Below are positions 1,081-53,027 of a stretch of 64,000 nucleotides of DNA, one piece after another. Source of the stretch: Nymphaea colorata. Taxonomy: Eukaryota > Streptophyta > Magnoliopsida > Nymphaeales > Nymphaeaceae. The DNA lies in NCBI RefSeq assembly GCF_008831285.2, contig NC_045139.1:18272354-18336353 (forward strand), in the 5' to 3' direction. The translations under genes and the position numbers were made by a program. The notes below the pieces were generated by a model, which saw only the letters and a list, made by a program, of their open reading frames with translations, had not been told where the DNA came from and ran no database searches. Position 1 is the stretch's first letter, and each line of letters starts with the position of its first letter.

Positions 1081-2826
1081 CGGCAGAGCAGCCCCTCACT
1101 CTCGTAAAAACTCCAGCCACAGGGAAATATATTATTATTGTTATGCATTAGAATACTGTTGAGGGAGAAAAACTCTTGATTGATTCCTGCATTTAAGGAT
1201 TTTATGTAACGTGTTTGTGTATAACCAACTCCATTTCTTTTTTTTCTCCCTACCCCATTTTTTTTAAGTGTATGTACACAATCGATCTCACTATTCTATC
1301 CATATGCAATTTTGATCTTCACCAACAAATCTTTTCTCGATCGTTTGCTATCAAGAGAAGTTCGAGAGAAAAGAAGGCAATCGGGACAAGAGACTTTGTC
1401 CAATTAACTAGTCTTTTCTGTGTCGTCATAATCATCTTAATCGGTCAATACATGGACGGTTAACCAGTCTTTTCAGTGTTCAATGCAATGTCATTAAATC
1501 CGCGACTCTTGGCCACCGGCATTAAATCGGAGTCGTTGTTCTGAAAACGATGGAAAGGTTGAATGGGTCTTCGTTCGGCTGATGCCGGGGAGCTAGCGGA
1601 GTTGTAGTGCAGAGTGCCATGGCCGGGACTATAACCCATTTCAGCCACAGGGGGCACGCTCTCACGGCCATGGCTCCCAGTGTTTCGGTGCCATGCTCTG
1701 TCAACAAGACGGGCAAATGCAGGGATTTTATGCTTGCCAGACATGCCAGTATTACCTGGGCTTCGTCTGCGCTAAGCTCGAGAAGAGAAGACTCACATCC
1801 AGGCTCATGAACAGCATCCTCTCACTCTCGTAACAACTCCAGCCACAGGAAACGTCCCCATAATTTGCAGGGCCTGTGGGGGCTGGATTCTAGGCTGGAG
1901 ATATAGCTGCAGCTGCCGCTGCAACTATTACCTGCACGCTGCCTGCGCCCATTGGCCGAAGACGATAGAAACGGCCGGAGATCACGAGCACCCGCTTAAC
2001 CTGCACTTTTCGGCCGGTCCTCAGCCCCGCTCCGACGAAGGAATCAACTACACGCGGTGTGGTCATGGAGACAAAGGGCTGTGGGGTTACGACTGCAGTA
2101 CCTGCGGCAGTGGGTTCTTCCAGCACTTAGGTAACAGCAGTTCTACCGGCCACAGAATCTGAAAATCTGTTCTCAAATCTTTCAATTTGTATATACCATA
2201 GTGTTCAAAATTTTGGGTGCCACCGTACTTTGATGTAGAGATTATATAATTTCCTTCCTACAAGTTGATTCTTGATTACTTTAATCATAACTACAAATAT
2301 CACCTTTCAGATTCAGATGATAAGGCTTTGTGCGGGTCTAAAATGACTTTTTTTAACAAGAAAAAGGTGGAAAGTTTTAGCAAATTTTGACACAATGAAT
2401 CTTTCAGTGAAAAAAAGGTGGTCAAAACCTTAAAAATAAAATGTGAAAATAAGAAACTGGTAACTAAAAACTGTAAAAAAACACAAAAATGAAAAAAATG
2501 AAAAAAAGAAGAGTTAAATTGAAGGCATTATTAATACACCTACACAACCGACTGATTGTGCTACTCATCAATGAAACAAACAAATAAAAAGAGAGAATGA
2601 GCGCTACGGTGCTAAGTGAAATCGCATCATTAATGATTATTTTCGTGCTATCTTGACTTATTTAAGTTGATACTCAATATACAACAATAATTTAGATTTT
2701 AATTATTAATTTATCGGTATTAACACTTCTTTTTTTATCATTTTTCAGATTGCGCAGCCGCTATAGCGTTTGTTGCTTCCGAAGACCCTGTAAGTCCTCT
2801 TCTACGTTCCTATTTTCCTTAGATTG

Positions 2827-2829
<3 letters not shown>

Positions 2830-2897
<68 letters not shown>
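2830..2897. repeat. (TA)n microsatellite
   Basis: An uninterrupted TA dinucleotide run of about 68 bases, followed by a short GAGA run. It lies in the second intron of copy A, just after exon 2. Copy B has only a short TATA run at the same place, so the array expanded after the duplication. Confidence 0.98.
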
Positions 2898-2899
<2 letters not shown>

Positions 2900-3499
2900 A
2901 GAGAGAAAGAGAGAGAGAATGCACACTTCTATACCACCATATCTATCATATTTGATCAAAAATTGACACTAAACAATAAAAAAAATGATGGTTGACTCTC
3001 TTTCTTTTAAACCACTGGGAAGCCCTACCAGGCAGTCCCATTTTAGATTTTTTTTTTTAAGTGCTGTACATTTTAGTTTTTTATATTTTCATAATTCTCA
3101 TTTTATTTTTCAAAAGTAGTTTTTTTTTCACTTTAATGAAAATATTTTAGTCATTACATACACCTATGCACGCACAAGGAAGAGTTCCATCAACCCAACC
3201 CCCTCCGCGCCCACCTATTGAAGATGATGGGTAGACTTCCCTTGCAAAGAACGGAGGGAAGGCAAAATGTTACCTCCCTCATCATACGTTTTTTTATATT
3301 AAAAAAAGGATCAAATGGTGTCAAATATATATATATATATATAAATTTTTGTATATATAAATTTTTGTTTGGTAGGATACTCATTCAATACCTTTAATGT
3401 AAGTACAACAATCAAATATATCAAAACATTAACATACATATTAAACAAACTTTGTGAGGCTGGTGTGGGCAGATGCCCACACCAACCACCAACCACCAT

Positions 3500-3920
3500 G
3501 TGGCTGATATAAGGTAAGATTAATTAAAAGCAGCTGTAGATGTTTAAAAAGTTACGGAGACCACTATGAATATAAATATTCAATGTTGTTGCAAGCACCG
3601 GTAATACCTTTTATAGCAAGGGTTTACAACCAGGCAATGAAAATGAGGAGACATGTATGGCTGATGTAGACCATGGTTCGCAAATTAGTGAGTCGGACTT
3701 AGATTGGCTGATGACCAGGTCATTAGGTCAATCAGTTAATATGATTCGTTCGATCGAGTTTTAAAATAACCTGAGTTCGGGAGCAAACGAAGCGAAACCT
3801 TGACTTGTGAGTCTATGACTAGGTTTTCTAGCGATCCAAATAGATTCAGGTAATTAATTCTCAAGTCCAGTCGGCCAGTCAGCTTTGATTTCAACTAAAA
3901 GTAACACGTTTGTCTCCGCT
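3500..3920 (+). repeat. Intron 2 sequence shared with copy B
   Basis: From AAGGTAAGATTAATTAAA to the start of exon 3 this stretch matches 10577-11050 (intron 2 of copy B). Both include GAATATAAATATTCAATG and the GCTGATGACC word. It supports the view that A and B are duplicates of the whole gene and not retrocopies. Confidence 0.75.
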
Positions 3921-4560
3921 CTCACCTGCTTAAGTCGTGCATCTTCTGGTGGCGCAGCTTGATGTAGGTGAAACGGTGGATACGATGGTGGATGTTGCGA
4001 ACGGCATAGGCAACAATGATGGAGGTGGCGCTGCCATTGACGGGCCGGGTTCCTTGTGGGAACTGGTTGAGCTCCTAGTACCCAACCGCTTCTCTGCACC
4101 TATTTCTCTCGTAACACAATTGGTTCCCCCTGATCCAGCGCAAACAGTGTCTGCAACAGCCCCCAATGCTGCACCAGCGAATAACCAAACAAGCCATCAT
4201 GACGACGACTGCTGCTGTGATGATGTCGACGATTCTTGCTGCTAAGTTCTTGAATGTATTTGTTCGTAGCATAAGTTAGAACATTAGTTCTATTCTACCT
4301 CAGCAAATAAAGTCTTTTCTGTTTGAATGTTGGAGAATCAGTTTGTGCATTGATATGTAAAGTAGCGAAGCAATATTAATGGAGTAGGAGCATCAGAGCT
4401 GTGTTGAAGATCAGAGAAATAAATCATGTTGATGGTTTGAGACTTAGAGCTCCATTTAGTTCTTCTTCCACTACCTGTTTGACTGTGACTGTTGTTATAG
4501 TTGTTTCCCCCAAGCTTGTTCCCAACTTGTAAATCTCTTTCTTTTTTCTTGTGCACCCAA

Positions 4561-4915
4561 GTCAATCTCACTTTGATGTTTACCAACAAACCTTTTCTCT
4601 ATCGTTTCCGATCAAGCGAAGATCAAGAGCAAAGGGCACTAGGGACAAGAGAGTTTGTCTAATTTAACTAGCCTTATCAGTGATGTCAAAATATTTTGAA
4701 TCGGTCAATGCATGAATAATAAATTCGAGTCCATCATCCTTTGTCGGATATCTAGCTAAAAATACTTTTGGCTACGGTTTTGTGATCTTTAGCGACTGTT
4801 GAGAATTTCATCGCATCGGCTACTATTGGCCCACCGGTATTAAATCGTCGTTGCTGTTCTGAAGAGGATGAAGCCGTTGATTGGGTCTCCATTGGCTGAT
4901 GATCTTAGAACCTCC
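4561..4915 (+). repeat. Duplicated upstream block (copy 2 of 2)
   Basis: Direct repeat of 709-1080. It leads into the truncated DC1 exon 1 fragment at 4958, in the same order as expected for a promoter followed by its gene. Confidence 0.8.
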
Positions 4916-4957
4916 GCCGACTGCACGGGAGCTAGAAGTGGCGTAGAGCAAGGTGCC

Positions 4958-5008
4958 ATGGTCGGGACGAATACGATAACCTATTTCAGCCACTGGGAGC
5001 ACGCTCTG
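4958..5008 (+). pseudogene. Truncated DC1 exon 1 fragment
   Basis: Begins GCCATGGTCGGG and reads as a start Met, then ITYFSHWEHAL, the first DC1 histidines of the tailed family. The match stops at GCTCTG, where the sequence jumps to TGTATAACTAACTCC, a phrase also found at 1216. It is a relic of a further copy, cut about 50 bases into its coding region. Confidence 0.75.
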
Positions 5009-6485
5009 TGTATAACTAACTCCATTTCTTTTTTTTCTCCGCCCTAAGTATTCAACTCCATCTATTTCAACTTTATCGTGTTCTTAAATTGAAGCTGAAC
5101 GCAATAGAAGGTTAACTTTAAGCACCTTTGTAAAAATCTGACTAGAGAATATAAGGTAAAAATCTGAGTGCAAATTCGAGCTCGGCTCGTTTGCATGCAC
5201 ACAAAAAAGGGAAAGCAGTTCATGTTTGGATTCCAAGGAAGGCCATGGAAATGATGTGTTGAGTTTCAGTTTATAAGTTGATCTATGATTCAATAACCAA
5301 GTTTACTTTGAGCACCCACAACTTAGAAATGCCTACAACAATAATACACGCACGATAATAATCTATGATTCAAAAAACTAAACTACAGTAATATACCATA
5401 CGCACAACATAGAAATGCAAAAGTCTGCCTTCATGCATTTCAGCAATCACTGGGTGAACATCTTGGCAAGTCCATGGAACCGGCGGGGAGGAAAAGAGAG
5501 AGAGACAGAGATTCCGGATAGCTCTCAAGTCTCACCGGTGGATGCTGATGCACAGAGGAAGAAAGCTTCAGTTGCAGTTGCCTGTTGGTGAGGAGGAGGA
5601 ACTCAAACATTCTGTTGGCTTGTTGCCTTGAATGCCGCCCAAAAACAATAGGGTGTGGAAAAACCAATAGATTTTGAAAGCCGCTGCTTTGAAAGCTGCT
5701 GGTCTGCTGTTGCTGCCTGCACAGGCACAGCCTGTGGGAGGAGGGTCGGTGACCAGCCGACAGGAGGGGTCGATTGAGAGAAGAGAGTTAGAGAGAGAAA
5801 CAGAAAAAAAAGAGAGAAATTAGTCCAAATTGAAATGCATATGAAGACAATAAAAGCAGAATGAGAAAAGTGAGGATCGAATTCCCTCGTTTACAAACTC
5901 GAGTTTCAATTGAAACTTGACCTTGGAGCCCAGCTCGAGTCAGTATTTTTGAACGAATTCGAGCCGAGCATGGCTCGTTGTACATTCCTACTTATTCTTC
6001 TCCGGTCTCCACAACTTAGCCTGATTTAATTTCTCCCTCATTAACTGTCCACGTAAACACGTGAGATGTTCAATATGATGGGGAAGGTAAGATCTAATGC
6101 TTGGAAATTTAATTCGTTTACCATTTACCTATGAATCCCCATGTCGACCCAATAATTTAGACGCGGCCTGTTCAGATAGCTATGACCTCAGCTTGACTTT
6201 GTCCAATCTGACTCCCTTGGAAAAAAAAAAAAAGGATTGAGGGAATTTAAGATTTTTTTATAAAAAAATGTATATTTTAGACTTTTATTATTTTCGTAAT
6301 CTTCTTTTTAACTTTTTCAAAATCTTTTTTTTATAAAAAAAGAAACTGTAGTAGGGGTACTTTCTTTATTGCATGCCCATATTGTGCACACAATTTCCCT
6401 TTAGGTGGTTAAGTTGACAGAGTGATAGTTCCTTTTTTTCCTCTCTCTCTCTTTCTATATATATATTACTTTCGTGTTTTCTCTG
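5009..6485. other. Intergenic, no gene seen
   Basis: No supported gene. 5050-5290 is repeated at 12950-13170 (shared CATGTTTGGATTCCAAGGA). Around 5870-5960 there are GAATTCGAG/CTCGAGT words of a dispersed repeat also seen at 13020-13380 and 36900-37380. 6000-6200 starts a block that is repeated at 7080-7300 and 13380-13560. Confidence 0.6.
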
Positions 6486-6715
6486 AACTGGTGGAGCTGC
6501 TGCTACCCCATCGCTTCTCTGAACCTATTTCTTTCGTAACACAGTTGGTTCCCCCTGATCCTCTCCAAACAATGTCTGCAAATGCTGCACCTCCGAACAA
6601 CCAAACAAGCCCTGATGACGACGACTGCTGCTGTGATGATGACGACGACGACTGCGACTGTGATGATGATGACGGCGATTGTTGCTGCTGCATTCTTCAA
6701 TGTATTTGTTCGTAG
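6486..6715 (+). pseudogene. Isolated exon 3 of the Asp/Cys-tail DC1 family
   Basis: Only the 3' part of the last exon is present. It starts at ELVELLLPHRFSEPI and runs through PPDP, NNQTSPDDDD and an Asp/Cys repeat to the terminus ILQCICS, then TAG. This is the only copy in the window whose tail stays open to the C(I/L)CS end; copies A, B and C stop earlier or are shifted. An AATAAA signal follows at 6747-6752, as in the other copies. Upstream there is only a TATA/CTCT microsatellite and no exon 1 or 2, so it cannot make the full protein. Confidence 0.8.
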
Positions 6716-7079
6716 CATAAGTTGGAACGTTAATTCTGCCTCAAGAAATAAAGTCTTTTCTATTTGAATGTTGAAGCATCAGTTTGTGCATTGATATGTA
6801 AAGTAGGGGAGCAATATTGATGGAGTAGGAGCATCAGAGCTGTGTTGAAGATCAGAGAAATAGAAGTGAAGGGGCGAAGCATATTGGTGGTTAGAGTGAC
6901 TTAAGAGCTCCATTTAGTTCTTGCTCCGCTACCTGTTTGACAGTGACCGTGACTGTAACTGAAAATCTATGTTGCATTCTAAGTTAGAAAATTGATTCAT
7001 GACGCAAACGGGGCCCCCATTGAGGGTTGGGCCTCTCCCTGTTATGTCAAAAACATATAAGTAGATTGATCCGTACTTA

Positions 7080-7560
7080 GAAATAGACTCACATAAAGTA
7101 TCAAAACTTAGCCTGATTTAATTTCTCCCTCATTAATGGCCTTCGATTATCCACTCAAACACGTCTAAATGTTCAATACGATGGGAAAGGTGAGATTTGA
7201 TGCTTGGAGATTTAATTCTTTGACAACTTAGCTATAAATCCCAACGTGGACGCAATAATTTAGACGCGGCCTGTTGAAATAGGTATGATCTCAGCTAGGC
7301 TTTCTCTCCAATGTTCCGTGGCCCCAAGATATGAACCTTCCACATGATGAAGTGGAGGCTTTCTCCACTCAAACACGACTCGTCATTGAATTGGACATGA
7401 CAATTTGTTCAATTAATTGAAATTTAATGATGAGGAAAAGGTTGTACATAATTCCCAGGGAAGAAATTAGAATTCACGTTACATCGGAGGTGTCTCAAGG
7501 GTGGGTTAGGAGACTAATTAATTTTGAGGACTGTGTCTTAGGGAGCTCCCTGCCTTCTTC
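7080..7560 (+). repeat. Segmental duplicate block (partner 13380-13800)
   Basis: Shares with 13380-13800 the order GATTTAATTTCTCCC, CACTCAAACACG, TTTAGACGCGGCCTGTTGAAAT and TTCAATTAATTGAAATTTAATG. A third, shorter copy starts near 6020. There is no gene inside. Confidence 0.8.
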
Positions 7561-7759
7561 CCCTTTTTCTTTTCTTTCTTACTACATCACAACAACTAGC
7601 GTTAGGTGGTGCGTTTCATGTATGCATTGGTTTGTGCATGCAACAAATATACATTAGATAAAAAAAGGGGGGTTGAGGAATTTAAGAATTCTTTATGACG
7701 AAATGTATATTTTATACTTTTGTTATTTTAATAATCTCCTTTTCAACCTTCTCAAAATC

Positions 7760-7965
7760 TCTTTTTTAAATATCAAATACCTTTTTTAAAGTTTTAAATT
7801 GAATAATTTTAAAAATGCTTATTCTCTGTGAATTCAAGTCGAGTCGTGTTAAAATAGTCTCTGTGAATTTTCTATTTCAAATACCTTTTTAAAAGTTTCA
7901 AATTGAATGATTTTAAAATACTTATTCCCTGTGAATTCAAGTCGAGTCGTGTTAAAATATTCTCT
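7760..7965 (+). repeat. Tandem duplication, about 100-bp unit
   Basis: A unit containing GTGAATTCAAGTCGAGTCG followed by TGTTAAAATA occurs twice in a row, near 7829 and near 7930, with the same flanks (AAATACCTTTTT before). A single copy is at 14218-14300, so the tandem step is specific to this unit. Confidence 0.85.
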
Positions 7966-8089
7966 GTAAATTTTTAATTCCTTTTTATTTCCAGTACAAC
8001 CGTCGCCTATAGACCGGTCGAGCTTAGATTGACCACGAAAATTAGTCCTCCGGTGGTGCATGTCACTCCCTGGTCGTGCATGTTACTCC

Positions 8090-8600
8090 CTTCTGACCCG
8101 TAAAACCCCTCAAAAGTTATCATTTTTTTTTAAAATATAACATTTACATGCAATTAGGGTCCCGTGAGAATTTTTTTTTTTTTGTCCAGGCCAAATTATT
8201 AGTACGGTCTAAATAAATTTTTCAAAATATTTTATATATTAAACTAATTTTTTTAAAATTTATAAGCAAAATTTTGATTTTCTAAAATCTGATACTTACA
8301 ACTAATTAGTTCACATAGTTCTTATACCACATGCACGTATGTCTGAGTAATTATCCACACGGTCCAATAAAAATCATTTATTAGATGTTGGTGAACATTA
8401 AGTTTTTATATAATTACATATAAAATGCCTCTCAAATATATATCATATCCCTTTAACTCTCAAATATATATCATATCCCTTTAACTAAATACGTCTGGCT
8501 CTGCCATTATATGTCGGCTAAATATCAAAAAGAAAACATTTAATTTGATCATGAACATATTGAATATTGTGATCAATCCATTTTTGCACCTATTCTTTTC
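8090..8600 (+). repeat. Segmental duplicate block, left flank of unit B
   Basis: Diverged copy of about 60-500 and of 14360-14650. It contains a 28-base local tandem at 8429-8484 (CTCAAATATATATCATATCC twice). No gene. Confidence 0.65.
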
Positions 8601-9360
8601 CATGAAACTAACTGTGTATAAAGACTGGTTAAGAATATGCTCAAAAAGTTGTGAATAAAAAAGAGGGAGATTTTTAAAAGTATAAAAAAGATACTATAAA
8701 AATATTTAAAATTTTAAAATATACTTTATAATAAATTATAAAGTACCCTGCCCCTGTCACGGGCTCACGGCGTGTGTGTGTGTGTATGAAGGGCAATTCT
8801 CTCGATGGACGCATATGCGGTGTCCACAATCGCGTAGAGTCACACGGGGAAGAGCAAATGAAAGCTCATCGTCGAGTAGGGCAATGGTCAGTCGCTTTAA
8901 TGACATAGTGTCGACAACTGACTTTGGATGGAGACTTTTTCTTAAAAAGAAATCTACCCCCTCTTAGATTCCGAATGGAAGTAGATAAACGCTTAGAGAA
9001 ATGATAGTGTTTGGAAAGGCTTCATGGTCACAGCTTGTCGAGGGTTTATTGGGGGACAATCCTAGATGGTGTACTGAGTGCCTAGAACTTTTTGTCTAAT
9101 CACAGTTTCAAAAACATTGATATATTAAAATTGAGTTAAAACTGACCAAAGGATTGAACCATTGAAAAACCATTGATGTGGTCAAATAAAACTTGACAAA
9201 GTCAGCCGTAACTGTTTTTCTTTCCTTAAAGTGTATGTTGGTTGCACACACTACACAAGTAGATGGAGCCGTTGAATTGGTCTTCGTTCGGCTGATGATC
9301 TTCTGTATAAGAAGCTTCGCCGACAGCCGGGGAGCTGGCGGAGTTGTAGTGCAGAGTGCC

Positions 9361-11399
9361 ATGGCCGGGATGATAACCCATTTCAGCCACAGGGAGCACG
9401 CTCTCACGGCCATGGCTCCCGATCTTCGGTGCAATGCTCTGTCTGCAAGAGGAGCAAATGCGTTGCCAAGGGATTTTATGGTTGCAAGACATGCCAGTAT
9501 TACCTGGGCTTCGTCTGCGCTATGCTCGAAGAGAAGACTCACATCAGGGCTCATGAACAGCACCCCCTCACTCTTGTAACAACTCCAGCCACAGGGAACG
9601 TCCCCAGAATTTGTAGGGCCTGTGGGGGCCAGATTCTACGCAGGAGAAGTAGCTGCAGCTGCAGCTATGACCTGCACGCTGCGTGCGCCCATTGGCCGAA
9701 GACGATAGGGACGAGCACCCGCTTAACCTGCACGTTCCCGCCGGTCCTCAGCCTCGCCCCGGCAAAGGAATCAACTGCAGGCGGTGTGGTCATGGCGATA
9801 AAGGGCTGTGGCGTTACGGCTGCAGCACCTGCGGTAGTGGGTTCTTCCACCACTTAGGTAAACAGCAGTTTCTACCAGTCCATCAGAATCTGAAAACATG
9901 TTCAATCTTTCAATTTGTATATACCATAGTGCTCAAAATTATGGGTGCCATCGTACTTTAATGTAGAGATTATATTATTCCCTTCCTACAAGTTGATTCT
10001 TGATTACTTTAACCATAACTACAAATATCATCTCCCAGATTCAAATGATAAGGCTTTGTGCGGGTATAAAATGACGAAGCTTTTTTTACAAGAAAAAAAT
10101 GGAAAAATGTTAACAAATTTTAGCAGAATAATCTTTCAGTGCAAAAATGTGAAACGTGAAAATAAGAAACTGACAACTAAAAACTGTAAAAAACACAAAA
10201 ATGGGAAAAAATAAAAAAAAGAAAGAAAAATTAAATTGAAGGCATTATTAATACACCTATTCACCCGACTGATTGTGCTACCCATCATTGGAAGAAAGAA
10301 ATAAAGAGAGAGAATGAGTGCTACGGACTACGGTGCTAAGTGAAGTTGCTTCGTTAATGATTATTTTCGTGCAATCTTGACTTACCTAAATTTGATTCTC
10401 AATATACAACAACAAATAATTAGATTTTAATTACTAATTTATCGGTATTAACACACTTTCTCTTTTTCTTCATTTTTCAGATTGCGCCGCAGCTATTGCA
10501 TTTGTTGCTTCTGAAAACCCTGTAAGTTCTCTTCTATGTTCCTCTCTTCCTCAATTTACTTATACATATATATATAAAAGGTAAGATTAATTAAAAGCAG
10601 TTGAATGCTAAATGTTGCTGGATGTTTAGAAAATTTAAGAAGATCATGGAGACCACCATGAATATAAATATTCAATGTTGTTGCAAGTATCGCTAATTCA
10701 TTTTATAGTCTAGGGCTTAATAGCTAAAGAACATGGGGAGATGTTGTTGCAAGTATCGCTAATTCCTTTTATAATCAAGGGCTTAATAGCTTATGAAAAT
10801 GGGCTGACATGTATGTAGACAAATTCGTGAGTTGGACTTGAATTGGCTGATGACCGCCAACCTTGACTTATGGCTAGGTTTTTTAGCGACCTGAGTTGAT
10901 GAGAGTAATTCTGAAGTCTAACTCGGCAAATCAGCCAACTATGATGTGAACAATTATTCACACCAAGCAACGTAAATAGTCTTTTCATTTCAACTAAAAG
11001 TTACAGGTTTGTTTGTCTGCGCTCTCACCTGCTTAAGTCGAGCATCATTTGCAGGCGGAGCTTGATATTGGTGAAACGGTGGATACGATACAAATTGTGG
11101 TGGACGTTTTGAACGGCATGGGCAACGATGATGGGGGTGGCGCTGCCATTGACGGGCCCGATTCCTTGTGGGAACTCTTTGAGCTCCTAGTACCCGACCG
11201 CTTCTCTCAACCTCTTTCTCTCATAGCACAATTGGTTCCCCCTGATCCTGTGCAAATAATGTCTCCAAATGCTGCACCCGCCAGTAACCAAACAAGCTCT
11301 GATGATGACGACGACTGCAACTGTGATGATGACAACGACTGCAACTGTGATGACGATGACGACGACTGCAACTGTGATGACGACGACGACTGTTGCTGA
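9361..11399 (+). pseudogene. DC1-domain Asp/Cys-tail gene, copy B (three exons, two frameshifts)
   Basis: Exon 1 is 9361-9857. It starts at the ATG in GTGCCATGGCCGGG and has three DC1 segments, but one base is missing near 9425 (GATCTTCGG where copy C has GATGTTTCGG) and 13 bases are missing near 9710, so the frame changes twice. Exon 2 is 10481-10521, 41 bases, with TTTTTCAG and GTAAGT sites. Exon 3 is 11055-11399 after TTTGCAG. It encodes a hydrophobic segment (LWELFELLVP), a PPDP motif and a tail of four Asp-run/CNC units ending in DDDDDCC. The splice phases are consistent (1, 0). Polyadenylation AATAAA is near 11485. Splicing and the tail look healthy while exon 1 is broken, so loss seems recent, or the reference has errors. 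Confidence 0.87.
10600..10800 (+). repeat. Local tandem duplication in intron 2 of copy B
   Basis: GCAAGTATCGCTAATTC followed by TTTTATA and GGGCTTAATAGCT occurs twice (near 10684 and near 10750). Copy A has one such unit near 3592. Confidence 0.8.
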
Positions 11400-11689
11400 T
11401 TCTTGTGATGATGACGACGATTGTTGCTGATTCTTCAGTGTCTTTGTTCGTAGCATAAGTTAGAACAGTAATTCTGCCTCAACAAATAAAGTCTTTGCTA
11501 TTTGAATGTTGGAGCATCAGTTTGTGAATGTAAAGTAGGGGAGCAATATTAATGGAGTAGGAGTATCAGAGCTGCGTTGAACATTAGAGAAACAGAAGTG
11601 AAGGGGCGAAGCCTATTGATGGTTAGAGTGACTTAGAGCTCCATTTGGTTCTTCTTCCAGTACCTGTTTGACTGTGTCTGTGACTGTGA

Positions 11690-12310
11690 AAATCTATGTT
11701 GCATTCTTGGGTGTTGTGCATAAGTTAGAAATAACGTATTAATTTTTCAGGGGCAATTTTAACTTCTAATTTTGCTCCCTCAGAACAAGGCTCGTTTTCA
11801 CTATGCACCTTAACCACCCATGCAAAAAAAAAAGGGGGCGAGAAGCTTTGTAGTCGAATTTAACAGGAAGAGTCCATTATTTTTCTAAACTTTTTTTTCC
11901 CTTAATGACAAAAACCTGTCATCCTTTAACTGAAAATTTTAGAAACAAATAAAATAAGGTGTATAAGTTTGAGGCCAATAAAAAAAAAACAACTTCCAGC
12001 TCAACTTTTGAAAGTTCATAAATGGGCAATCCACTTCTAAGAGAAAAATACATATTAAAAAAACAGTAAACTTTGTTATAAAGCTGTAAAAATATCCCTA
12101 ACCATTTTTCCATTGGTTGAAAAAAGATATTTTCCTCCTCAATAGAGTTATTTTTGTTATTTAATACCAAAAATTGATGTTTCCTTCTAATAGACGGATA
12201 TTTAAAAATTTTATTTCTAAAGTCGGATTGAGGTTCAAGGCTGAGCATTAGTTTTTTACTTGCCTAAATGTTAACTTTTTATTTCTAATTTTTCTGCTTC
12301 TGTTTCTGCT
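11690..12310 (+). repeat. Segmental duplicate block (partner 16690-17280)
   Basis: Both copies contain AATTTTAGAAACAAATAAAA, AGGTGTATAAGTTTGAGG and TTCCTCCTCAATAGAG, in the same order and orientation, downstream of the tailed DC1 copies B and C. The block is the 3' flank of the duplication unit. Minus-strand reading frames here are short and not supported as genes. Confidence 0.85.
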
Positions 12311-12314
12311 TTCA

Positions 12315-12925
12315 GCCGGGTTTCATCCACAAACATTTATATGATACAATATAGATCTACAACTGTATACACTAATAAAATATTCAAATGTTTAAAATTT
12401 ATGTATTACGTATAATGTGGTCCGTCAAAATTGAAATGCACTTATACGTAATACAGCTCGAGGAATTGATCTTCTTCTTCTTCTTTCTTCTTTCTTCTTT
12501 CTTCTTTCTTCTTTTCTTTTAAGAGTCAAGCGGAATTCTATCAGCTTAAACATGCCTCTAGTATGAAACTTTCTCTGAAACTTTCTCTTTTTATTGCTGA
12601 TGTTACAGAAAGGGATATTTGAGCCCTTTTTTTGTTTTGGATTGGTTAAATAATCGGTTGCCGAAGTATAAAGCACGTAGAGATTGCAAGAGTCAGGTTC
12701 CCGAATGTCTGTCATGCACCAAATAAATTACTTTAGTAAATAAATGTCATCTATAATATTAGTATATGGACTAACGGACGCTTTGAGGGCGTAGCGCACC
12801 TTGCGTTGGTGGCTCAATTTAACAGTTCGGTCATCAGCTTGATTCTTGTGGGCACTATTCATCTGTATTGTAAATGGTGGTAATGCAACACTTTAGTTGA
12901 TGGTATACACGGGCCCAACCAAGTC
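12315..12925 (+). repeat. Dispersed repeat (partner 27160-27735)
   Basis: Starts at GGGTTTCATCCACAAAC and ends near GTATACACGGGCCCA, with the same order of words in 27160-27735, including ATGTATTACGTATAAT and CACGTAGAGATTGCAAGAG. The two copies are about 15 kb apart and flank copy C and MTP5. No coding content is seen. Local CTT repeats lie at 12470-12515. Confidence 0.85.
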
Positions 12926-12949
12926 TCCAAGTAACTCGTTAAATTAAAG

Positions 12950-13170
12950 GTAAACGCAATGGAGCGTTAACTTTAAGCAGAGCAGCTTCGTAAAAAATCT
13001 GAGTAGAGAATATAAGATAAACTTTGGGCAAATTCGAGCTCGACTCGTTTAAGCTCGTTTGCATGCACACAAAAAAGGGAAAGCAGTTCATGTTTGGATT
13101 CCAAGGAAGGCCATGGAAATGATGTGTTGAGTTTCAGTTTATAAGTTAATCTATGATTCAATAACCAAGT
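12950..13170 (+). repeat. Repeat of 5050-5290
   Basis: Shared words include GTTAACTTTAAGCA, CATGTTTGGATTCCAAGGA and GTTTCAGTTTATAAGTT. It marks a second duplicated flank between unit A and unit B. Confidence 0.75.
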
Positions 13171-13379
13171 TTACTTTCTCATTTGTGCACCCACAACATA
13201 GGAATGCACAACAATGAAAGTTCGTCTTCAATCTTCGAAACAGGGTTTCTTCAAGACGCGGTAAAAGTTTTCGTTTGAAAGGAAGACAATCGAGTCGAGT
13301 TCCCTCGTTTCCAAACTCGAGTTTCAATTGGAACTCGAGCTCGGAGCCGAGCTCGAGTCGAATATTTTCGAACGAGTCT

Positions 13380-13800
13380 CCAAAACTTCTGCATGATTTA
13401 ATTTCTCCCCCATCAATAGCCTTCGGTCGTCCACGCAAACACGTCTAAATGTTGGGAAGGTAAGATTTCATGTTTGGAGATTTAATCCATTGACCGTTTA
13501 CCTATAAATCCCCACGTCGACGCAAGAATTAAGACGCGGCCTGTTGAAATAGGTTTGATCTCAGCACGACTTGGTCCAATGTCAGTCTGAGTCCATGAAC
13601 CTTCCACATGATCAAGTGGAGACTTTCTCCACTCAAACACGACTCGTGATTGAATCAAACATGATAATTGGTTCAATTAATTGAAATTTAATGGCGAGCG
13701 AGGAAAAGTTTGTAAATAATTCCCAGGGAAGACAGGCTTCTGGGGGAATTAGAATTCATGTTACGTCAGATGTGTCAGAAGGGTGGGTTAGGAGATCAAT
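13380..13800 (+). repeat. Segmental duplicate block (partner 7080-7560)
   Basis: Direct, closely related copy of 7080-7560; see that entry. Downstream, 13860-14640 is AT-rich with no gene and continues the similarity to 7760-8400. Confidence 0.8.
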
Positions 13801-14647
13801 TAATTTTGAAGACTGGATCCATAGCCACAAGAAATGGAGAGAGTTTTCTCGGGTTTAAAACCGCAAAGTCGTAATTTTTTTAATTTTAAAACTATCAATG
13901 TTTTGGTGAGAAGGAGAAAGGTCGCCACAATCTTTAAAAGAAAATATGAAAATAAAAATTTGGTAACTTAAAAAAAATGTAAAAACAAGTGAAAAAAATA
14001 GTTAAGAAAGGGGAAAGGTTAACATTTTTTTAATTTATAAGCCAAAATAGGTATGGATCATTGCTTTCTTAATCCTCCTCATGATAAAACGACACCTATA
14101 GTCTCATGATTTCGTTGAAATTTCTCATGATTGAGAACATTTGAGCTGAATGATTGCAGCTTATTTTGGAGTTATCAAACGAAAATGTGGATCTGATCAA
14201 ACTAAAACACACGATTTCAAATACCTTTTTAAATGTTTTAAATTGAAAAAATGCTTATTCTCTGTGAATTCAAGCCGAGTCGTGTTAAAATATTGTCTGT
14301 GATTTTTCAATTTCTTTTTATTTCCAGTACAACCGACACCTATAGACTAGTCAAGCTTAGAATGACCCGTAAAAACCCACTCAAAATTTATCCTTTTTTT
14401 TTTTTGAAAAAATAACATTTACATGCAATTAGGGGTCGACGAGAAATTTTTGTCGTTGGTGGGGTCGAATTATAGTTTCAATATTTAAACAATATTTAAA
14501 TACAATTTTCAATTTTTCATGTATATTAAACCAAAATTTTAAAAATTTATAAGCAAAATTTTGTTTTTTTCTAAAATATGATGCTTATAACAAATTAGTT
14601 CACATAGTTCTGCCATTACATGTCAATTAAAAAAGAAAGTATCGAAT

Positions 14648-15183
14648 TTCATCATTTAGAGAATCCGCTAGCTCCCGAGCAGTCGGCGAAGCTTCGATCA
14701 TCAGCCCAACGAAGACCCATTCAACGGCTCCATCATTTTCAGAACAATTTGATTGATTGAGAAGAATTGTCCTTAACCCACGCACACTCCATTCACCCCG
14801 GGACAGGGACGGAGCACTTTATAATTTTATTATAAAATACATTTTTACTTTTAAATATTTTTGTTGTATTTTTTATTCTTTTAAAATTCACCCTTTTTGC
14901 TTTGTCAGGTGTATTTTGATTATTACAAATGGGTGTGCACTTAATGTGCATATGTAGTGATCAAAATGCACCTGACAAAGCAAAAAGGAAGATTTTTAAA
15001 AGAATAAAAAAGATACTATAAAAAATTTTAAAAATTAAAATATACTTTCTGGTGTTCCTGTCATGGCAGAAGTGTGTGAGTGTGTTAGGGGCAATTCTTC
15101 GGTGAACCTATATCATAGGAGCGGTTGAATGAGTCGTCTTTCGGCAGACAAGAAGCTCCGCCGACTACCCGGGAGCTAGCGGA
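14648..15183. repeat. Large inverted repeat of DC1 promoter DNA
   Basis: Arms of roughly 230-280 bases face each other around a 27-base spacer (14927-14953). The inner arms pair as CCTTTTTGCTTTGTCAGGTG (14891 on) and its complement ending at 14988. Further out, GAAGAATTGTCCTTAAC (14760) faces GTTAGGGGCAATTCTTC (15085). The outermost left arm, CCGCTAGCTCCCGAGCAGTC, is the complement of the GGGAGCTAGCGG stretch at 15171, just before the copy C start codon. The left arm is therefore an inverted copy of the 5' flank of the tailed DC1 gene. The spacer itself holds TGCAC and GTGCA as a small stem. Confidence 0.85.
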
Positions 15184-15208
15184 GTTGTAGTGCGGACTGC
15201 AGAGTGCC

Positions 15209-16487
15209 ATGGCCGGGATCGGGATGATAACCCATTTCAGCCACAGGGAGCATGCTCTTACGGCCATGGCTCCCGATGTTTCGGTGCGATGCTCTGTCTG
15301 CAAGAGGAGCAAATGCGTTGCCAAGGGATTTTATGCTTGCAAGACATGCCAGTATTACCTGGGCTTCGTCTGCGCTATGCTCGAAGAGAAGACGCACATC
15401 CCGGCTCATGAACAGCACCCCCTCACTCTCGTAACAACTCCAGCCACAGGGAACGTCTCTAGAATTTGCAGGGCCTGTGGGGGCCAGATTCGAGGCTGGA
15501 GATATAGCTGCAGCTGCCACTGCAGCTATGACCTGCACGCTGCCTGCGCCCATTGGCCGAAGACGATAGAAACGACCGCAGTTCACGTGCACCCGCTTAA
15601 CCTGCACTTTCCCGCCGGTCCTCAGCCTCGCCACGACAGGGGAATCAACTGCAGGGGGTGTGGTCATGGCGACAAAGGGCTGTGGGGTTACAGCTGCAGC
15701 ACCTGCGGTAGTGGGTTCTTCCACCACTTAGGTAAACAGCAGTTTCTACCAGTCCATCAATTTGTATATACCATAGTGTTCAAAATTTTGGGTGCCATCG
15801 TATTTTGATGTAGAGATTCAATAATTCCCTTCCTACAAGTTGATCCTTGGTTACTTTAGTCATAACTACAAATATCATCTTCCAGATTCAAATGATAAGG
15901 CTTTGTGCGGGTATAAAATGACAAAAAAAAAAAAGGAAAAATTTTAGCAAATTTTAACATAACTAATCTTTCAGTGAAAAATTGTGAAATGAGAAAATAA
16001 GTAACTGGTAACTAAAACCTTAAAAAACACAAAATAGGAAAAAAAAAATGAGAAAACTTAAATTGAAGGCATTATTTATACACCTATTCAACCGACTGAT
16101 TGTGCTACCGCTCATTGTTGCCTACCGCTTGATATAGGTGAAGCGGTGGATACGATGCAAATTGTGGTGGACGTTTTGAACGGCATAGGCAACAATGAAG
16201 GGGGTGGCGCTGCCATTGACGGGCCGGATTGCTTGTGGGAACTGGTTGAGCTCCTAGTACCCCACCGCTTCTCTGCACCTATTTCTCTCGTAACACAATT
16301 GATTCCCCCATATCCTGTGCAAATAATGTCTGCAATCGCTGCACCCATCAGTAACCAAACAAGCCCTCATCATGACGACGATTGCAACTGAGATGATGAC
16401 GACGATTGCAACTGTGATGACGACGACGACTGCAACTGTGATGACGACGATGACTGCAACTACATTCTTCAGTGTCTTTGCTCGTAG
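15209..16487 (+). pseudogene. DC1-domain Asp/Cys-tail gene, copy C (exon 1 open, exon 2 deleted)
   Basis: Exon 1 (15209-15731) is the only fully open one. It has about 174 codons with three DC1 segments: HFSHREHAL with CSVC and CKTC, then HEQHPLTL with CRAC, CSYDLHAAC, and then HPLNLHF with CRGC, CSTC and FFHH, stopping one residue before the last zinc ligand. That Cys lies in exon 2 in copies A and B. Here intron sequence breaks near 16108 and resumes inside exon 3 near 16128, so about 775 bases with exon 2, intron 2 and the exon 3 acceptor are missing. Exon 3 then reads through LWELVELLVP and PPYP to HHDDDCN and a TGA where a Cys codon is expected. Beyond it the frame stays open with DDDDDCNC units to ILQCLCS and TAG (16485-16487). 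Exon 1 alone could still give a truncated DC1 protein by intron read-through. Confidence 0.83.
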
Positions 16488-28605: not shown

Positions 28606-28708
28606 GAGTCAAGTCAAGCATCGTACAGCTATAGATCTGGCTCCATGTCACCATTAAATGTCAACAAAACTCTAGGAGCATCTCAGAAAAAGAGAGAGAG
28701 AGAGAGAG
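28606..28708 (+). promoter_or_regulatory. W-box pair and GA leader of the 28709 DC1 gene
   Basis: GAGTCAAGTCAAGCA at 28606-28620 contains AGTCAA twice, the reverse of the WRKY-type TTGACT core. A pure GA run (about 28690-28708) touches the start codon. The same two features, in the same order, precede the other DC1 genes. Confidence 0.5.
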
Positions 28709-29863
28709 ATGGGGAGGACAGCGATGACGACGGTGCACCATTTCAGCCATGGCCACCCTCTGCAACTAGTCTCTTTCACCCAGGCCCAGCAGCCCAATCT
28801 CAAGACCCAGTGCTGCGGCCCCCCCTTCTCCTCCTGGACTAACCATGGCCGCTCCTCCGAGCCTCTCTACGCCTGCGAGCACTGCAACTTCTACGTCCAC
28901 AAGGGCTGCTTGCAGCTTCCCCAGCTCATCACCCATCCCTCCCACCCCGCCCACCCCCTCACCCTCCTGCCCGTCTGCCACTACCCCGACGCCACCTTCT
29001 CCTGCGACGCCTGCTCCCGATCTTCCAGCTGCTTCTCCTACAACTGTGCCCACTGCTCCTTCGACCTCCACGTCTACTGCGCCTCCATGCCCCTCGCCGT
29101 CAGCCATGGCTCCCACCCTCACCGGCTTTCCCTCTCTTTCGCCTGCCCCTACCCTGAAGACGGCGACTTCCAATGTGATCTCTGCAGAGGGAAGGGAGGA
29201 AGCGCCTGGCTCTACCGCTGCGCCCCTTGTGGCTTCGACGCCCACCTCGACTGCGCTAGACGCATCGGCCCCGTGACCGGTGTGCCCGCTCAGCCCATGG
29301 GAGCTCCGAGAGCAGTGGCACCCACCCAACCTGTCCGACCATACTCACCGGCGCCCAATTACCAGGTCGGCCCAAGACCACCCGTCCATCCCCTCCGACC
29401 ATCTGCCGGCCAGCCATATGCAGTTGCACAGGCTCCAAGACTAACCGGAACAGGTCTTCCGCCACAGTTCAGGCCGGTAGGTTTGAGACCGGTGATGCCT
29501 GGTCGGCCACAGGCAGCGCAGGCTCAACCAATGGCTTGGAACCAACCAGCCACCCAGCCGACCGTGGAGGCGTCTCTGCAACTTAACTTTGGGGATGGCG
29601 GTGACCAAAGCGGGGGACAAGGGGATGGAGGGCAGAACGGTACTTCTGGAGATCAAAGTCAAGATGGTTATTCTGATAATGGAGGAGCAAATGCAGGGAA
29701 TTGCGATTCAGGGAGTCAAGGGGTGGACTACGCCGGTGACGGAGGAGCGGAGTATTGTAGTTACGAAGCTTCGGCTGGCGAAGCCTACTTTATTAATAGC
29801 GATGAAGGACAGAATTTTGTTGGGTGTGAGGTGGAGTGTGATGATTTTGTGTGTGACGATTGA
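28709..29863 (+). CDS. DC1-domain protein with Pro/Gln-rich and acidic tail
   Basis: Single exon, 384 residues. DC1 motifs lie at about residues 11-67 (HFSHGHPLQL, YACEHC, VHKGC), 79-124 (HPLTLLP, CDAC, CAHCSFDLHVYC) and 135-182 (HPHRLSL, CDLC, CAPCGFDAHLDC). All expected Cys/His ligands are visible. DC1 is a plant-expanded C1-like zinc fold implicated in defence and hormone responses; its ligand here is unknown. Residues 190-300 are Pro/Ala/Gln-rich. Residues 300-384 are Gly/Asp/Ser-rich and end in CEVECDDFVCDD, an acidic Cys-bearing end. The start is chosen because it follows the GA leader typical of the cluster. GC content is much higher than in the flanks. Confidence 0.93.
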   Translation: MGRTAMTTVHHFSHGHPLQLVSFTQAQQPNLKTQCCGPPFSSWTNHGRSSEPLYACEHCNFYVHKGCLQLPQLITHPSHPAHPLTLLPVCHYPDATFSCDACSRSSSCFSYNCAHCSFDLHVYCASMPLAVSHGSHPHRLSLSFACPYPEDGDFQCDLCRGKGGSAWLYRCAPCGFDAHLDCARRIGPVTGVPAQPMGAPRAVAPTQPVRPYSPAPNYQVGPRPPVHPLRPSAGQPYAVAQAPRLTGTGLPPQFRPVGLRPVMPGRPQAAQAQPMAWNQPATQPTVEASLQLNFGDGGDQSGGQGDGGQNGTSGDQSQDGYSDNGGANAGNCDSGSQGVDYAGDGGAEYCSYEASAGEAYFINSDEGQNFVGCEVECDDFVCDD

Positions 29864-31193
29864 AGGTGGGATTTGTGATTGAAGAGCCTTTTTTTTTTTT
29901 CTGGGTTGCAGTATGGTGATCTTGAGGTGAATGTATGGTTGGTCAAATTAATTATTTGCAGTTTCTGAATGCCTGTGTGGATATTGTAAATAGTTGGGTC
30001 TGCTCTTGAGAAAAGTAATCAAGATTATGCTTTTGAATGGCTATGTACTCAATAGTTATGCTGGATCTGTTTATTTTTTACTTTAAGATTTTGATTTAAA
30101 AAAAAATCTGAAAATTATGGAGTACTGTTGATTGCTTTATCATGAAACGAGTTTGAAGACTTAAAAAAGTGGGCAAATGGATGGCATACAACTTTTATAC
30201 ATTACTTAGCCCGTTGACAAATATAGGAATGAAGATCGATTTAGAATATATAGTTCCTTGAAATAGAGCATCACTTTTTCTCCCTTTCTGCTGGTTAAGC
30301 AAGCAATCAAAGGTAGTGCTGGTTTCCCCAAGGATGAAGCTTCTCTTGTCATCATGGATTAATTAGCCTTTCTTCCTGGGGCAAGCTATTATGATTTCTC
30401 AACCAGCCTCAGCCGAGCCACATGGTGTTACCATAATTTTCAATGCGCTTCTTAAGTTTCATAGGTCTTCTAATGCTGCTGATTGCACGTAAGATATCGG
30501 CCCAAGTTTGTTAAGAATGCCTACATTTTTTTTCTTTTAAATAAGCAAGTTGGATTGAGGCGAATTATTATCAGATTATTATGTTAGCTGATCTACAATT
30601 TAAATATTGAACTCTTGACTTGAACATTTTATATGTACCTAACTCCTAGCTATTTTTATATGTCAATTTATTCCACTTGAGTACAGTTGATCGGAAGCGG
30701 TGTCCGCACAGTATGCTTTGGGACGCTCTGTCCGACCGAACAAACACGCGATGAATTGAAATCATAGATCAGTCCTTGGTCAACGTACGCCAAGTAGCAA
30801 GAAGTTGGTCTCTTTCAATTGACGTCACAACTTTATTCTCTCCCCTTCTGATATTCCTAACATTATAAACTCAAGTACTGGACATATATGAATTAAAGTT
30901 TAGAAGCAAATAAGTGTGAAGCAAGTCAATGCAACAGCTGACTATGATTCTCTTGTGCTTTAAATGTCTAAGGCACGTAAGCTATATGAAGAATTTCTAC
31001 TCACAAAACTGAATCCTTCAAAGACGGTGACTCATGATCCAATCTTATTAAAAAAACCTTGCTAACGTTGGTTGGCAACTCGCATCCACAATTTCCTGCT
31101 CTTAAATTGTTCCTTACCTCTATTAATACTCGCAGTGAAAAGAGAGAGAGGGAGAGAGGTGGCCATGAATGAGGAAACGTAGAGCAGTCATCA
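29864..31193. other. Intergenic
   Basis: 3' region of the DC1 gene followed by an AT-rich spacer and the leader of the GT47 gene, which ends with a GA-rich stretch (AGAGAGAGGGAGAGAGG near 31142). No gene seen. Confidence 0.6.
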
Positions 31194-32864
31194 ATGGCGA
31201 AACAAAAGTGCACTACTGTTTGCTGGTTTCTCATAGTATGTTGCCTCACATTCTTAACTGTTCCCCTATTATTATCCCTCTCTTATTTTTCAGTATCCTC
31301 CTTTCATGTCTGTTTTTCTTCACAAAAAATGAAGGCTTACTGCCTTAGTTCCGGCTTCAATGCCACTGAAGCCCAAGCACCCAGTCCCCATGTCAAGCCT
31401 ACAAATGCTTCGCTCACTGAAGGAGATCAACCACTCTGTGCAACAGATAGCCTTAAAGGCCTAAGTTATACCAATGCAATGGCAGAGGGCAATGGCACCA
31501 AGTATGTTCAGGCCGGCGGCAAATCTACATCGGCGGGGACGCATACGGATACGAAAACAATATCCAATCGCTTCCACGGCTGCTCGATGCGAAGATCAAA
31601 TCAAAGCAAGAACATAGATTATGCAATTTCAACAGTGGCGCACCAAGTTCACAAACTAAGATCTCTAGCACATAACAGCACATGCAAAGGCACATGCAAT
31701 GACACCATATGCCAAGGGAAGGGGATATTTGTCTATGATCTGCCTCCAAAGTTCAACAAAGAAGTGCTGGATGGATGTGCTAAAATCTTCCCATGGATGA
31801 ATTTTTGTGGGCACCTCTCCAATCAAGGCCTTGGGCGCCTAGTCCACGAACTGGGTTCGAATTGGTACGCGACCAACCAGTTCTCGCTCGAGCCGATCTT
31901 CCATTCGCGGATCAAGAATCACCCTTGCCGGGTTCTTGAAGAAGAAAAGGCCTCACTTTTCTACATACCATTTTATGCAGGATTGAATGCAATGAAGGGC
32001 AATTCCCATAATTCCCCAGTTCATACTAAGGACCAGCTTGGATTGGAGCTAGTAGAGTGGATGAAGACCAAGAAGTCATGGGTCAAGAACCAGGGAAGAG
32101 ACCATTTTATAGCTGTGGGCACTATCTCTTGGGACCTTAGAAGAAAGACTAATGGTCAGGGCTGGGGAACAAACTTATTGGAGCTTAATGAAATGCAAAA
32201 CCCAATTAAACTAATAATAGAGCGCCAACCTTGGCACAGTAATGATGTAGGGATTCCTTACCCCACCAACTTTCACCCTACCTCTGATCAGGACATCATC
32301 AGTCTACAATCCAAGCTCTCTGAATCCAAACGGAAAACTTTGATTAGTTTCGCCGGCAGCGGGAGACCGAGAATGAAGAAGAACATCCGCAGGATCTTAA
32401 TCGAGGAATGCATGAGAAACTCTAGTGTTTGCACATACCTTGACTGCAAGTTAGTTGATTGTGTGAGCCCAGGCACTGTGGCGAAGCTTTTGATGGAGTC
32501 AGAGTTTTGCCTGCAGCCTCCAGGTGACAGTCCGACAAGGAAATCGTTCTTTGATTCTCTGGTTTATGGTTGCATTCCTGTTGTATTCGATCCTTTCACG
32601 GCGCACTTCCAGTATTCGTGGCACTTGCCGGAGGACTGCCGGCGGTACTCGGTTTATATAGATCAAGAGCTAGTGAAGCAGGGGAAGGTGGATGTCATGA
32701 ATGTTCTCAGTGGGATCTCGACTGAAGAGAGAAGGAAGATGAGAAGATACATAATTTTTGAGCTCATGCCGCGAATTATCTACGCGAATTATGACTCGAA
32801 ACTTGTGAATTTTCGGGATGCCTTTGAGATTTCTATTGATAATATGCTACGGATGGCAGCTTGA
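31194..32864 (+). CDS. GT47 family glycosyltransferase, MUR3/XLT2-like
   Basis: Single exon, 556 residues. A type II membrane anchor lies at about residues 9-35 (WFLIVCCLTFLTVPLLL), followed by a Ser/Thr-rich stem with many N-glycosylation sites. The exostosin-type domain runs from about 176 (GIFVYDLPPKFN) to 545. Family marks are WMNFCGHLSNQGLGR, NWYATNQFSLEPIFH, FYIPFYAGLNA, GRDHFIAVGTISWD, SFAGSGRP, FCLQPPGDSPTRKSFFDS, GCIPVVF and WHLPEDCRRYSVYI. Subgroup GT47A enzymes are Golgi galactosyl- or uronosyl-transferases that decorate xyloglucan, so a xyloglucan side-chain transferase is the best call. The exact sugar and position cannot be told from sequence. It sits between two DC1 genes and shows no obvious functional link to them. 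Confidence 0.93.
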   Translation: MAKQKCTTVCWFLIVCCLTFLTVPLLLSLSYFSVSSFHVCFSSQKMKAYCLSSGFNATEAQAPSPHVKPTNASLTEGDQPLCATDSLKGLSYTNAMAEGNGTKYVQAGGKSTSAGTHTDTKTISNRFHGCSMRRSNQSKNIDYAISTVAHQVHKLRSLAHNSTCKGTCNDTICQGKGIFVYDLPPKFNKEVLDGCAKIFPWMNFCGHLSNQGLGRLVHELGSNWYATNQFSLEPIFHSRIKNHPCRVLEEEKASLFYIPFYAGLNAMKGNSHNSPVHTKDQLGLELVEWMKTKKSWVKNQGRDHFIAVGTISWDLRRKTNGQGWGTNLLELNEMQNPIKLIIERQPWHSNDVGIPYPTNFHPTSDQDIISLQSKLSESKRKTLISFAGSGRPRMKKNIRRILIEECMRNSSVCTYLDCKLVDCVSPGTVAKLLMESEFCLQPPGDSPTRKSFFDSLVYGCIPVVFDPFTAHFQYSWHLPEDCRRYSVYIDQELVKQGKVDVMNVLSGISTEERRKMRRYIIFELMPRIIYANYDSKLVNFRDAFEISIDNMLRMAA

Positions 32865-35587: not shown

Positions 35588-35624
35588 CCATGTGTGAATC
35601 ATAGACAGAGACAGAGACAGAGAG

Positions 35625-36431
35625 ATGGAGATTGTGGCAGAAGAAGAGAGCGTGATCTACCACTTCAGCCATGTCCATGCCCTGCAACTCAACCCGGCCC
35701 TCAAACCAGTTTCTTCCCAAAATGGCCGCAGCAAAACACATTGCTGCGGATCCGTCCTGGACGCGGCAGAGCCAGATCCGATCTATGGCTGCAACCGCTG
35801 CAACTTCTTCATCCACAAGGCCTGCGCCGAGCTGCTCCCTTACATCCGCCACCCGTCTCACCCTTCTCACACCCTCACCCTCGTCCCCACCTCCCCTTAC
35901 CTAGACTACGGCACCGCGGAATGCGATGCCTGTGCTAAGACCATCAATGGCGGTTTCTTCTACCACTGCACCCACTGCGACTACGATCTTCACTCCCACT
36001 GCGCCTTCCTCCCCCACTCCCTCGGCCATGGCTCCCACAGGCATCGCCTCTTCCTCGACTTTCCCTCTGCTTATGGCACAAGCGCTTTTGATTGCGACAT
36101 CTGCGGGGGAAGAATTGTGCGGAAGACATGGTTCTACCACTGTAGGGCGGCCTGCGACTATGAAGCTCATGTTGACTGCGCCGTCGCTCGGCCTGATGGT
36201 GCCGTAATTCCCCGAGAAGATCGAGCTGCAGATCGTGGTGCGGAGATTCACCACCATGGAGAGCAATCTGAAGGTGAGGATGAGGACGAACTTCAGAACC
36301 ATTTAGAAGTCGCCAGAAAATTGCTTCATATGAGAATGTTGGAGGGTTCTTCCCTTCAGCAACAGAAGATGCAGGAAATGGCCGTGAACCAATATGCAAA
36401 GGGACAAGCAATCAGAAACAGCATGTTCTGA
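35625..36431 (+). CDS. DC1-domain protein, three DC1 motifs and charged C-terminus
   Basis: Single exon, 268 residues. DC1 motifs at about 13-67 (HFSHVHALQL, CCG, YGCNRC, FIHKAC), 79-126 (HTLTLVP, CDAC, CTHCDYDLHSHC) and 137-185 (HRHRLFL, CDIC, AACDYEAHVDC). The third motif has an extra residue pair (HCRAACDYE, where paralogues have CxPCDF). Residues 190-268 are strongly charged with a long helix-prone segment (EDELQNHLEVARKLL) in place of the Pro-rich tail of its neighbours. The ATG follows an AGACAGAGAG leader. It is the most divergent member at the C-terminus. Function is unknown beyond zinc binding inferred from DC1. Confidence 0.92.
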   Translation: MEIVAEEESVIYHFSHVHALQLNPALKPVSSQNGRSKTHCCGSVLDAAEPDPIYGCNRCNFFIHKACAELLPYIRHPSHPSHTLTLVPTSPYLDYGTAECDACAKTINGGFFYHCTHCDYDLHSHCAFLPHSLGHGSHRHRLFLDFPSAYGTSAFDCDICGGRIVRKTWFYHCRAACDYEAHVDCAVARPDGAVIPREDRAADRGAEIHHHGEQSEGEDEDELQNHLEVARKLLHMRMLEGSSLQQQKMQEMAVNQYAKGQAIRNSMF

Positions 36432-39936: not shown

Positions 39937-40088
39937 ATGGAAGGAATTTATCCTGAAGAAGAGATGGGCTCGATCTATCACTCCAGCCATCTTCATGTTC
40001 TGCAGCTCATCCCCGCCGACCATGGCTGCCCCCAAACCCGCTGCTGCGATCCCACCGCCGCCGCCATGATGAACACGAAGAAGAGAAC

Positions 40089-52996: not shown

Positions 52997-53027
<31 letters not shown>

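Follow-up and report, generated by a model that had tools for sequence, protein, structure and literature searches.

An Asp/Cys repeat tail in a decayed tandem array of plant DC1 genes

Is a last exon that codes for runs of aspartate broken by cysteines part of a new kind of zinc-finger protein, or is it what remains of a known one? The question is raised by a 64,000-nucleotide stretch of Nymphaea colorata contig NC_045139.1 (G000:C2:18272354-18336353), in an assembly of 407.8 Mb and 783 contigs. We call this whole stretch the window. A tandem array of DC1 (divergent C1, Cys/His-rich) zinc-finger genes lies within its positions 1-18 kb, and holds copies A to D of the exon in question, exon 3. 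We argue that this is a decayed tandem array that came from an ordinary DC1 gene, and that the tail was grown by in-frame repeat expansion. We put the probability of this genomic account at roughly 0.8.

The tail exon and the gene around it

Exon 3 has a conserved lead-in followed by Asp runs that are interrupted by Cys clusters and repeated in whole codons. Its four copies are on the forward strand at 3958-4245 (A), 6485-6715 (B), 11055-11399 (C) and 16128-16487 (D). An earlier note, made from the letters alone, had reported four last exons at nearly identical coordinates. In an alignment that includes B from column 38 on and D up to its stop only, 28 of 116 columns are invariant across the four rows; the lead-in accounts for 25 of these and the tail for 3. 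The motifs quoted in the earlier note hold overall, but D has PPYP in place of PPDP, and both C and D have SNQTS in place of NNQTS.

The tail is a repeat that respects codons. The pattern GAYGAYGAYTGYNNYTGYGAYGAY (GAY3 TGY NNY TGY GAY2) matches 7 times in the window, always in a copy of exon 3. A chance origin is rejected because there are 0 matches in each of 100 shuffles. Tandem Repeats Finder (TRF) gives periods inside the tails of 27 nucleotides in B, 24 and 27 in C, and 24 in D, with 81-93% matches; no row covers the short tail of A. The repeat frame is maintained along all four tails. These periods and this frame agree with what had been proposed for the tail, a short in-frame repeat that varies in number. 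The Asp codons over the four tails are 37 GAC and 24 GAT, and the Asp runs contain few other letters. TRF also finds a 31-nucleotide repeat, which is not whole codons, across the stop of copy C (duplication 11373-11435).

Searches with exon 3 give no Pfam match (E up to 1) and no sequence match in the PDB. An NCBIfam model for ribosomal protein L10 hits 2 of the 4 members, but its best score, 15.8 bits, is far below the cut-off of 547 and we put it down to acidic composition. Ser/Gln frames on the minus strand over the tail were rejected as genes since they are the complement of the GAY/TGY codons.

It is worth considering what precedes this exon. The Pfam model C1_2 (cut-off 26) scores 79.3 bits in D (15191-15805), 46 in A (1776-2159) and 42 in C (9276-9854). 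The donor of exon 1 is in phase 1 and lies a single codon beyond the finger-3 His (HHL G/GT). Exon 2 starts AT TGC to give HHL/DCAAAIAFVASE(D/N)P, which restores the last Cys of finger 3 in A and C. The junction of exons 2 and 3 is in phase 0, and the three exons join in phase in A and C. A, C and D share this phase-1 GT, and it is at the same place in all nine other loci scanned (U, L018, L021, L023-L026, L028 and L032), which were chosen since an open frame ended there. Another five DC1 genes in the window lack an intron at this point.

The best comparison is gene U (C2:18270104-18271476, L034:7105-8477). It is intact and lies upstream, with its end 0.9 kb from the window. U has three exons with the phases of the array and an open product of 319 residues. 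It groups with D at 100/99 in a tree of 15 rows that carries a long-branch warning, and its exon 1 is about half identical to that of the array. Since U has the same exons and phases, we take the layout of DC1 exons plus an Asp/Cys exon 3 to be real at the level of the sequence. The earlier note had suggested just this order, a DC1 exon, a short exon and the Asp/Cys exon, and the splice sites, the phases, the completion of finger 3 and gene U all speak for it.

The ligand sets of the fingers are not all complete. Finger 1 is without the usual His (LGFVC in A, C and D, LDPTC in U). Finger 2 is complete and finger 3 is complete only with exon 2. We keep A, C and D as degenerate DC1 members despite this, because the intact U also has no finger-1 His and because they score above the C1_2 cut-off. 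An AlphaFold model of exon 1 of D has a mean predicted local distance difference test score (pLDDT) of 84 and a predicted template modelling score (pTM) of 0.74. Sequence matches of exon 1 in the PDB are weak. The best is an aspartate aminotransferase (E 0.0094), and sequestosome-1 and At1g60420 (chain 1v5n) are both at E of about 0.02.

Damage to the copies and the search for others

By our own count the array has five units, four of them with exon 3. The pieces at 708-1126 and 4551-5007 raise the count to five. The first, from repeat alignments on the forward strand, is unit 0, a remnant made up of a 5' flank and 40 nucleotides of exon 1 (1087-1126), which match the exon 1 of D at 95% identity. 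Within it 708-819 recurs at 4551-4662 (90%) and 821-1006 recurs at 4665-4850 (92%). The second piece, 4551-5007, is taken as the 5' end of copy B.

All the exons that follow are on the forward strand as well. Exon 1 of copy A (1619-2130), placed by alignment and Pfam, has three DC1 fingers and the donor TTAG/GTAACA, and is frameshifted: relative to D there is a 7-nucleotide gap, a 2-nucleotide insert and an in-frame 6-nucleotide gap. Exon 2 (2749-2789, DCAAAIAFVASEDP) has the sites TTTTTCAG/.../GTAAGT and gives finger 3 its last Cys. Exon 3 is an open reading frame with the tail HHDDDCCCDDVDDSCC up to its stop. Intron 2 of this copy also holds a pure TA run of 33.5 copies (2831-2897).

Copy B has lost more. 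Alignment to D finds only a stub of exon 1 (4958-5007) with the start codon and the first codons; over 4975-5007 its identity with the D exon is 90.9%. The rest of exon 1, all of exon 2 and the 5' portion of exon 3 are absent. What is left of exon 3, by reading frame and alignment, is the 3' part with the tail PDDDDCCCDDDDDDCDCDDDDGDCCCCILQCICS and a stop.

Copy C has all three exons. Its exon 1 (9361-9857, by alignment and C1_2) is frameshifted, with gaps of 1 and 13 nucleotides and two in-frame gaps of 6 nucleotides relative to D. Exon 2 (10481-10521, DCAAAIAFVASENP) is placed by alignment and splice sites. Exon 3 is open and has the longest unbroken Asp/Cys tail, SDDDDDCNCDDDNDCNCDDDDDDCNCDDDDDCC and a stop; an alternative acceptor is possible at 11061.

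Exon 1 of copy D (15209-15731, by C1_2) is an open frame with three DC1 fingers and the donor TTAG/GTAAAC. The last Cys of finger 3 would lie in exon 2, and D has neither an exon 2 nor the acceptor that A and C use. In the reading frame of exon 3 a TGA at 16389-16391 stops the tail at PHHDDDCN, and past it the repeat keeps its frame up to the TAG at 16485-16487. There are 12 AGs listed between 15,900 and 16,200, and 6 of the 12 are in frame for a join of exon 1 to exon 3. The in-frame AG with the most pyrimidines (12/18) is at 16136-16137. It is a possible acceptor for an exon from 16138, and the predicted product would have fingers 1 and 2, an incomplete finger 3, the lead-in and a stub of the tail. 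Upstream of D, at 14640-14750, there is by eye an apparently inverted piece of the 5' segment of the array.

Judged by sequence, no copy from A to D can encode the full protein, and D could make at most the fingers with a stub tail. The reasons are the frameshifts in exon 1 of A and C, the deletions in B, and in D the missing exon 2 together with the stop in the tail. The claim that all copies are damaged thus stands.

The earlier note had also supposed that the genome may have a working member at another place. None was found by protein, DNA or pattern searches of the assembly, whose counts are lower bounds, the DNA search skipping simple repeats. Exon-3 protein (E up to 1) and the DNA of exon 3 with its 3' untranslated region each return 4 matches, A to D only. 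The tail pattern has 7 exact matches, all in the exons of A to D, and its backward control has 0. The idea that exon 3 belongs to a dispersed repeat is rejected, since the DNA search returns A to D alone. Among viral contigs 108 stretches matched a pattern, and tblastn found no relative there.

What the tail may have been for

The best account of the array begins with one ordinary plant DC1 gene, a sister of U. This ancestor would have had three coding exons, the first for the zinc fingers, the second for the last ligand of finger 3 and a linker, and the third for a lineage-specific tail. The tail would have grown as a minisatellite of 24-27 nucleotides with a unit of whole codons. Gain or loss of units would then lengthen or shorten the Asp and Cys runs and leave the frame unbroken. 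The decay of the array would have followed, by birth and death. Provided that the ancestor was expressed, the likeliest role for the tail would be a disordered acidic and thiol segment that holds or passes soft metal ions (Zn/Cu) next to the zinc fingers, a tentative guess that is rather likelier to be wrong than right. Splicing in RNA, a past function, disorder and metal binding are all things that we infer. The explanations of the tail that compete with this role are not all exclusive of the genomic account.

For exon 1 of U and D the ratio of nonsynonymous to synonymous substitution rates (dN/dS) is 0.35 (0.19-0.56; ranges here and below are 95% bootstrap), at a synonymous divergence (dS) of 1.31 that is near saturation. 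This argues that the finger module was constrained over the long run. Among A, C and D the exon 1 ratios are 0.67, 0.72 and 0.45, each with a bootstrap range that extends to 1, and the variable sites by codon position are 19/22/20. In the lead-in the ratios are 0.77 for A-C, 0.86 for A-D and 1.22 for C-D. A, C and D diverge in the manner of neutral sequence, and this counts against a living family. The third-position excess in the lead-in is not significant for A-B (p 0.08), B-C (0.21) or B-D (0.08), nor is it when all four copies are taken together (14/6/13, p 0.29). The pattern hints at an older constraint followed by release, on weak evidence.

Several points weigh against a decayed array with nothing working in it. 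The ratios for the lead-in with copy B are low: 0.27 (0.08-0.75) for A-B, 0.30 (0.11-0.77) for B-D and 0.41 (0.19-1.02) for B-C, at 42 codons per pair. This argues for past constraint and would leave room for a functional relative. Exon 1 of D is undamaged and the C-D ratio for exon 1 is 0.45 (0.21-1.04), so D might still be used. The assembly may also miss a copy.

The competing explanation that survives best is that the tail arose when a GAY/TGY minisatellite in the last exon of a dying gene expanded neutrally and in frame, and that the protein tail never had a function. We give it a little less than an even chance. It fits a short repeat with a varying number of units and a tail pattern that is restricted within the assembly to this array. 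It also fits the neutral look of the divergence among A, C and D, and BLASTP finds no alignment between the tail of the sister gene U and exon 3 of A. Against it stand the 25 invariant lead-in columns over four rows and the ratios below 1 in the pairs with B. The Asp codons are also mixed (GAC 37, GAT 24), though the repeat alone could yield that.

One can imagine instead a living family of metal-binding DC1 proteins. The tail would be a selected module for chelating or buffering, and the copies would be young pseudogenes beside a functional member, either D or a copy absent from the assembly. The exon-3 ratios of 0.27-0.41 in the pairs with B point this way, as does the open exon 1 of D with an in-frame AG at 16136-16137 that links it to exon 3. 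The tail of U is itself rich in His and Glu, and a study of Cu-binding rice root proteins includes, in its accessible text, a three-DC1 CHP protein that goes up under Cu stress (PMC4412397). However, no further copy was found in the assembly. A, C and D have no third-position excess and have exon-3 ratios of 0.77, 0.86 and 1.22. The product predicted for D would be without the Cys that ends finger 3 and would have almost none of the tail. We consider this scenario unlikely.

A lipid anchor is the least plausible role and we regard it as very improbable. It supposes an ancestral end ...C(C/N)(C/Y)ILQC(I/L)CS, with the Cys cluster S-acylated and a CaaX-like C-I/L-C-S prenylated, and it makes the stops of A and C later mutations. 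All four copies do keep a common TAG in the same place, and the codons before it read (I/V)L(Q/E)C(I/L)CS. B reads straight into it, D reaches it only beyond its internal TGA, and A and C stop earlier, at CC. As the end of a frame C(I/L)CS thus occurs only in B, which is fingerless, and in D past a stop, and 8 codons are too few for a selection test. A Cys at the second 'a' position also makes for an unusual CaaX.

The DC1 family around the array

The array resembles the plant DC1 family (Pfam C1_2, PF03107; VLG, BNP, TaCHP, CaDC1, At5g17960) in its three C1_2 fingers, its small protein and its tandem cluster. It differs in a last exon that codes for an Asp/Cys repeat tail. Metallothioneins and other Cys-x-Cys metal-binding tails have C-x-C and CCC clusters, as the array tail does. 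Unlike metallothioneins the array tail has Asp runs, is fused to zinc fingers and is coded by an exon without a Pfam match. In two family surveys, as far as their accessible text goes, DC1 genes are mostly intronless or intron-poor, and no mention of an Asp/Cys tail was found there (PMC10707348, PMC13033517). The accessible parts of other papers tie plant DC1 proteins to stress, pollen and defence (PMC10707348), report Arabidopsis C1-domain genes as enriched among genome-wide association candidates for trichome shape and metal accumulation (PMC11963502), and count 15 DC1 genes among repeat-flanked genes (PMC2869330). No mention of the tail was found in those parts of PMC4412397, PMC11963502 or PMC2869330, and no description of an Asp/Cys-tailed DC1 protein was found in the accessible literature on DC1 proteins or on such tails.

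The neighbours of the array have tails of other kinds. U shares the exons and phases of the array, but its tail has HRHHHHH and EETGEMEAA-type repeats with no Cys where the array has Asp/Cys. It matches only itself in the assembly at E up to 10. The U tail is a candidate natural metal-binding tail. In the same cluster as the array is the DC1 gene at 28676-29863, which has no intron in finger 3 and a tail that ends CEVECDDFVCDD. This gene is an open frame, and its Pro/Gly-rich tail (16% Gly, 13% Pro, 7% Asp, 3% Cys), ending GCEVECDDFVCDD, is a second acidic-Cys ending in the cluster. Further DC1 genes lie in 35598-53596 (at 35598, 45354, 48674, 49776 and 52940). Their tails differ and some have PGQVGA-like repeats; in the gene at 45354 the first finger is, by eye, apparently in another frame. 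A second large DC1 cluster is at G000:C9:11.81-12.28 Mb, where all 7 loci scanned have the finger-3 intron. The window also has an Exostosin/GT47 gene at 31173-32864 (a single open frame, Pfam 253 bits), and by eye from the list of open reading frames there are Copia-like retroelement frames of 957 and 466 amino acids, with one stop between them, on the minus strand at 40383-44657.

As it stands the array is a relic of a known gene family and not a demonstrated new protein. A bolder proposal is that a DC1 protein of this lineage gained an acidic thiol tail, with Asp runs around C-x-C and CCC, from a codon-phased minisatellite, that the tail binds metal or serves as an anchor, that it is still made by relatives within the genus, and that its length varies between individuals with the number of units. 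We think this quite improbable. What the locus does offer is a 64-kb cluster and its edge in which the DC1 modules are retained while the C-terminal tails differ, from Asp/Cys to His/Glu repeats to Gly/Pro-rich. It also shows how a minisatellite located in the final exon is able to add a new acidic-thiol tail without breaking the frame. Should some relative have an intact member, that protein would be a natural zinc finger whose tail is tunable and possibly binds metal.

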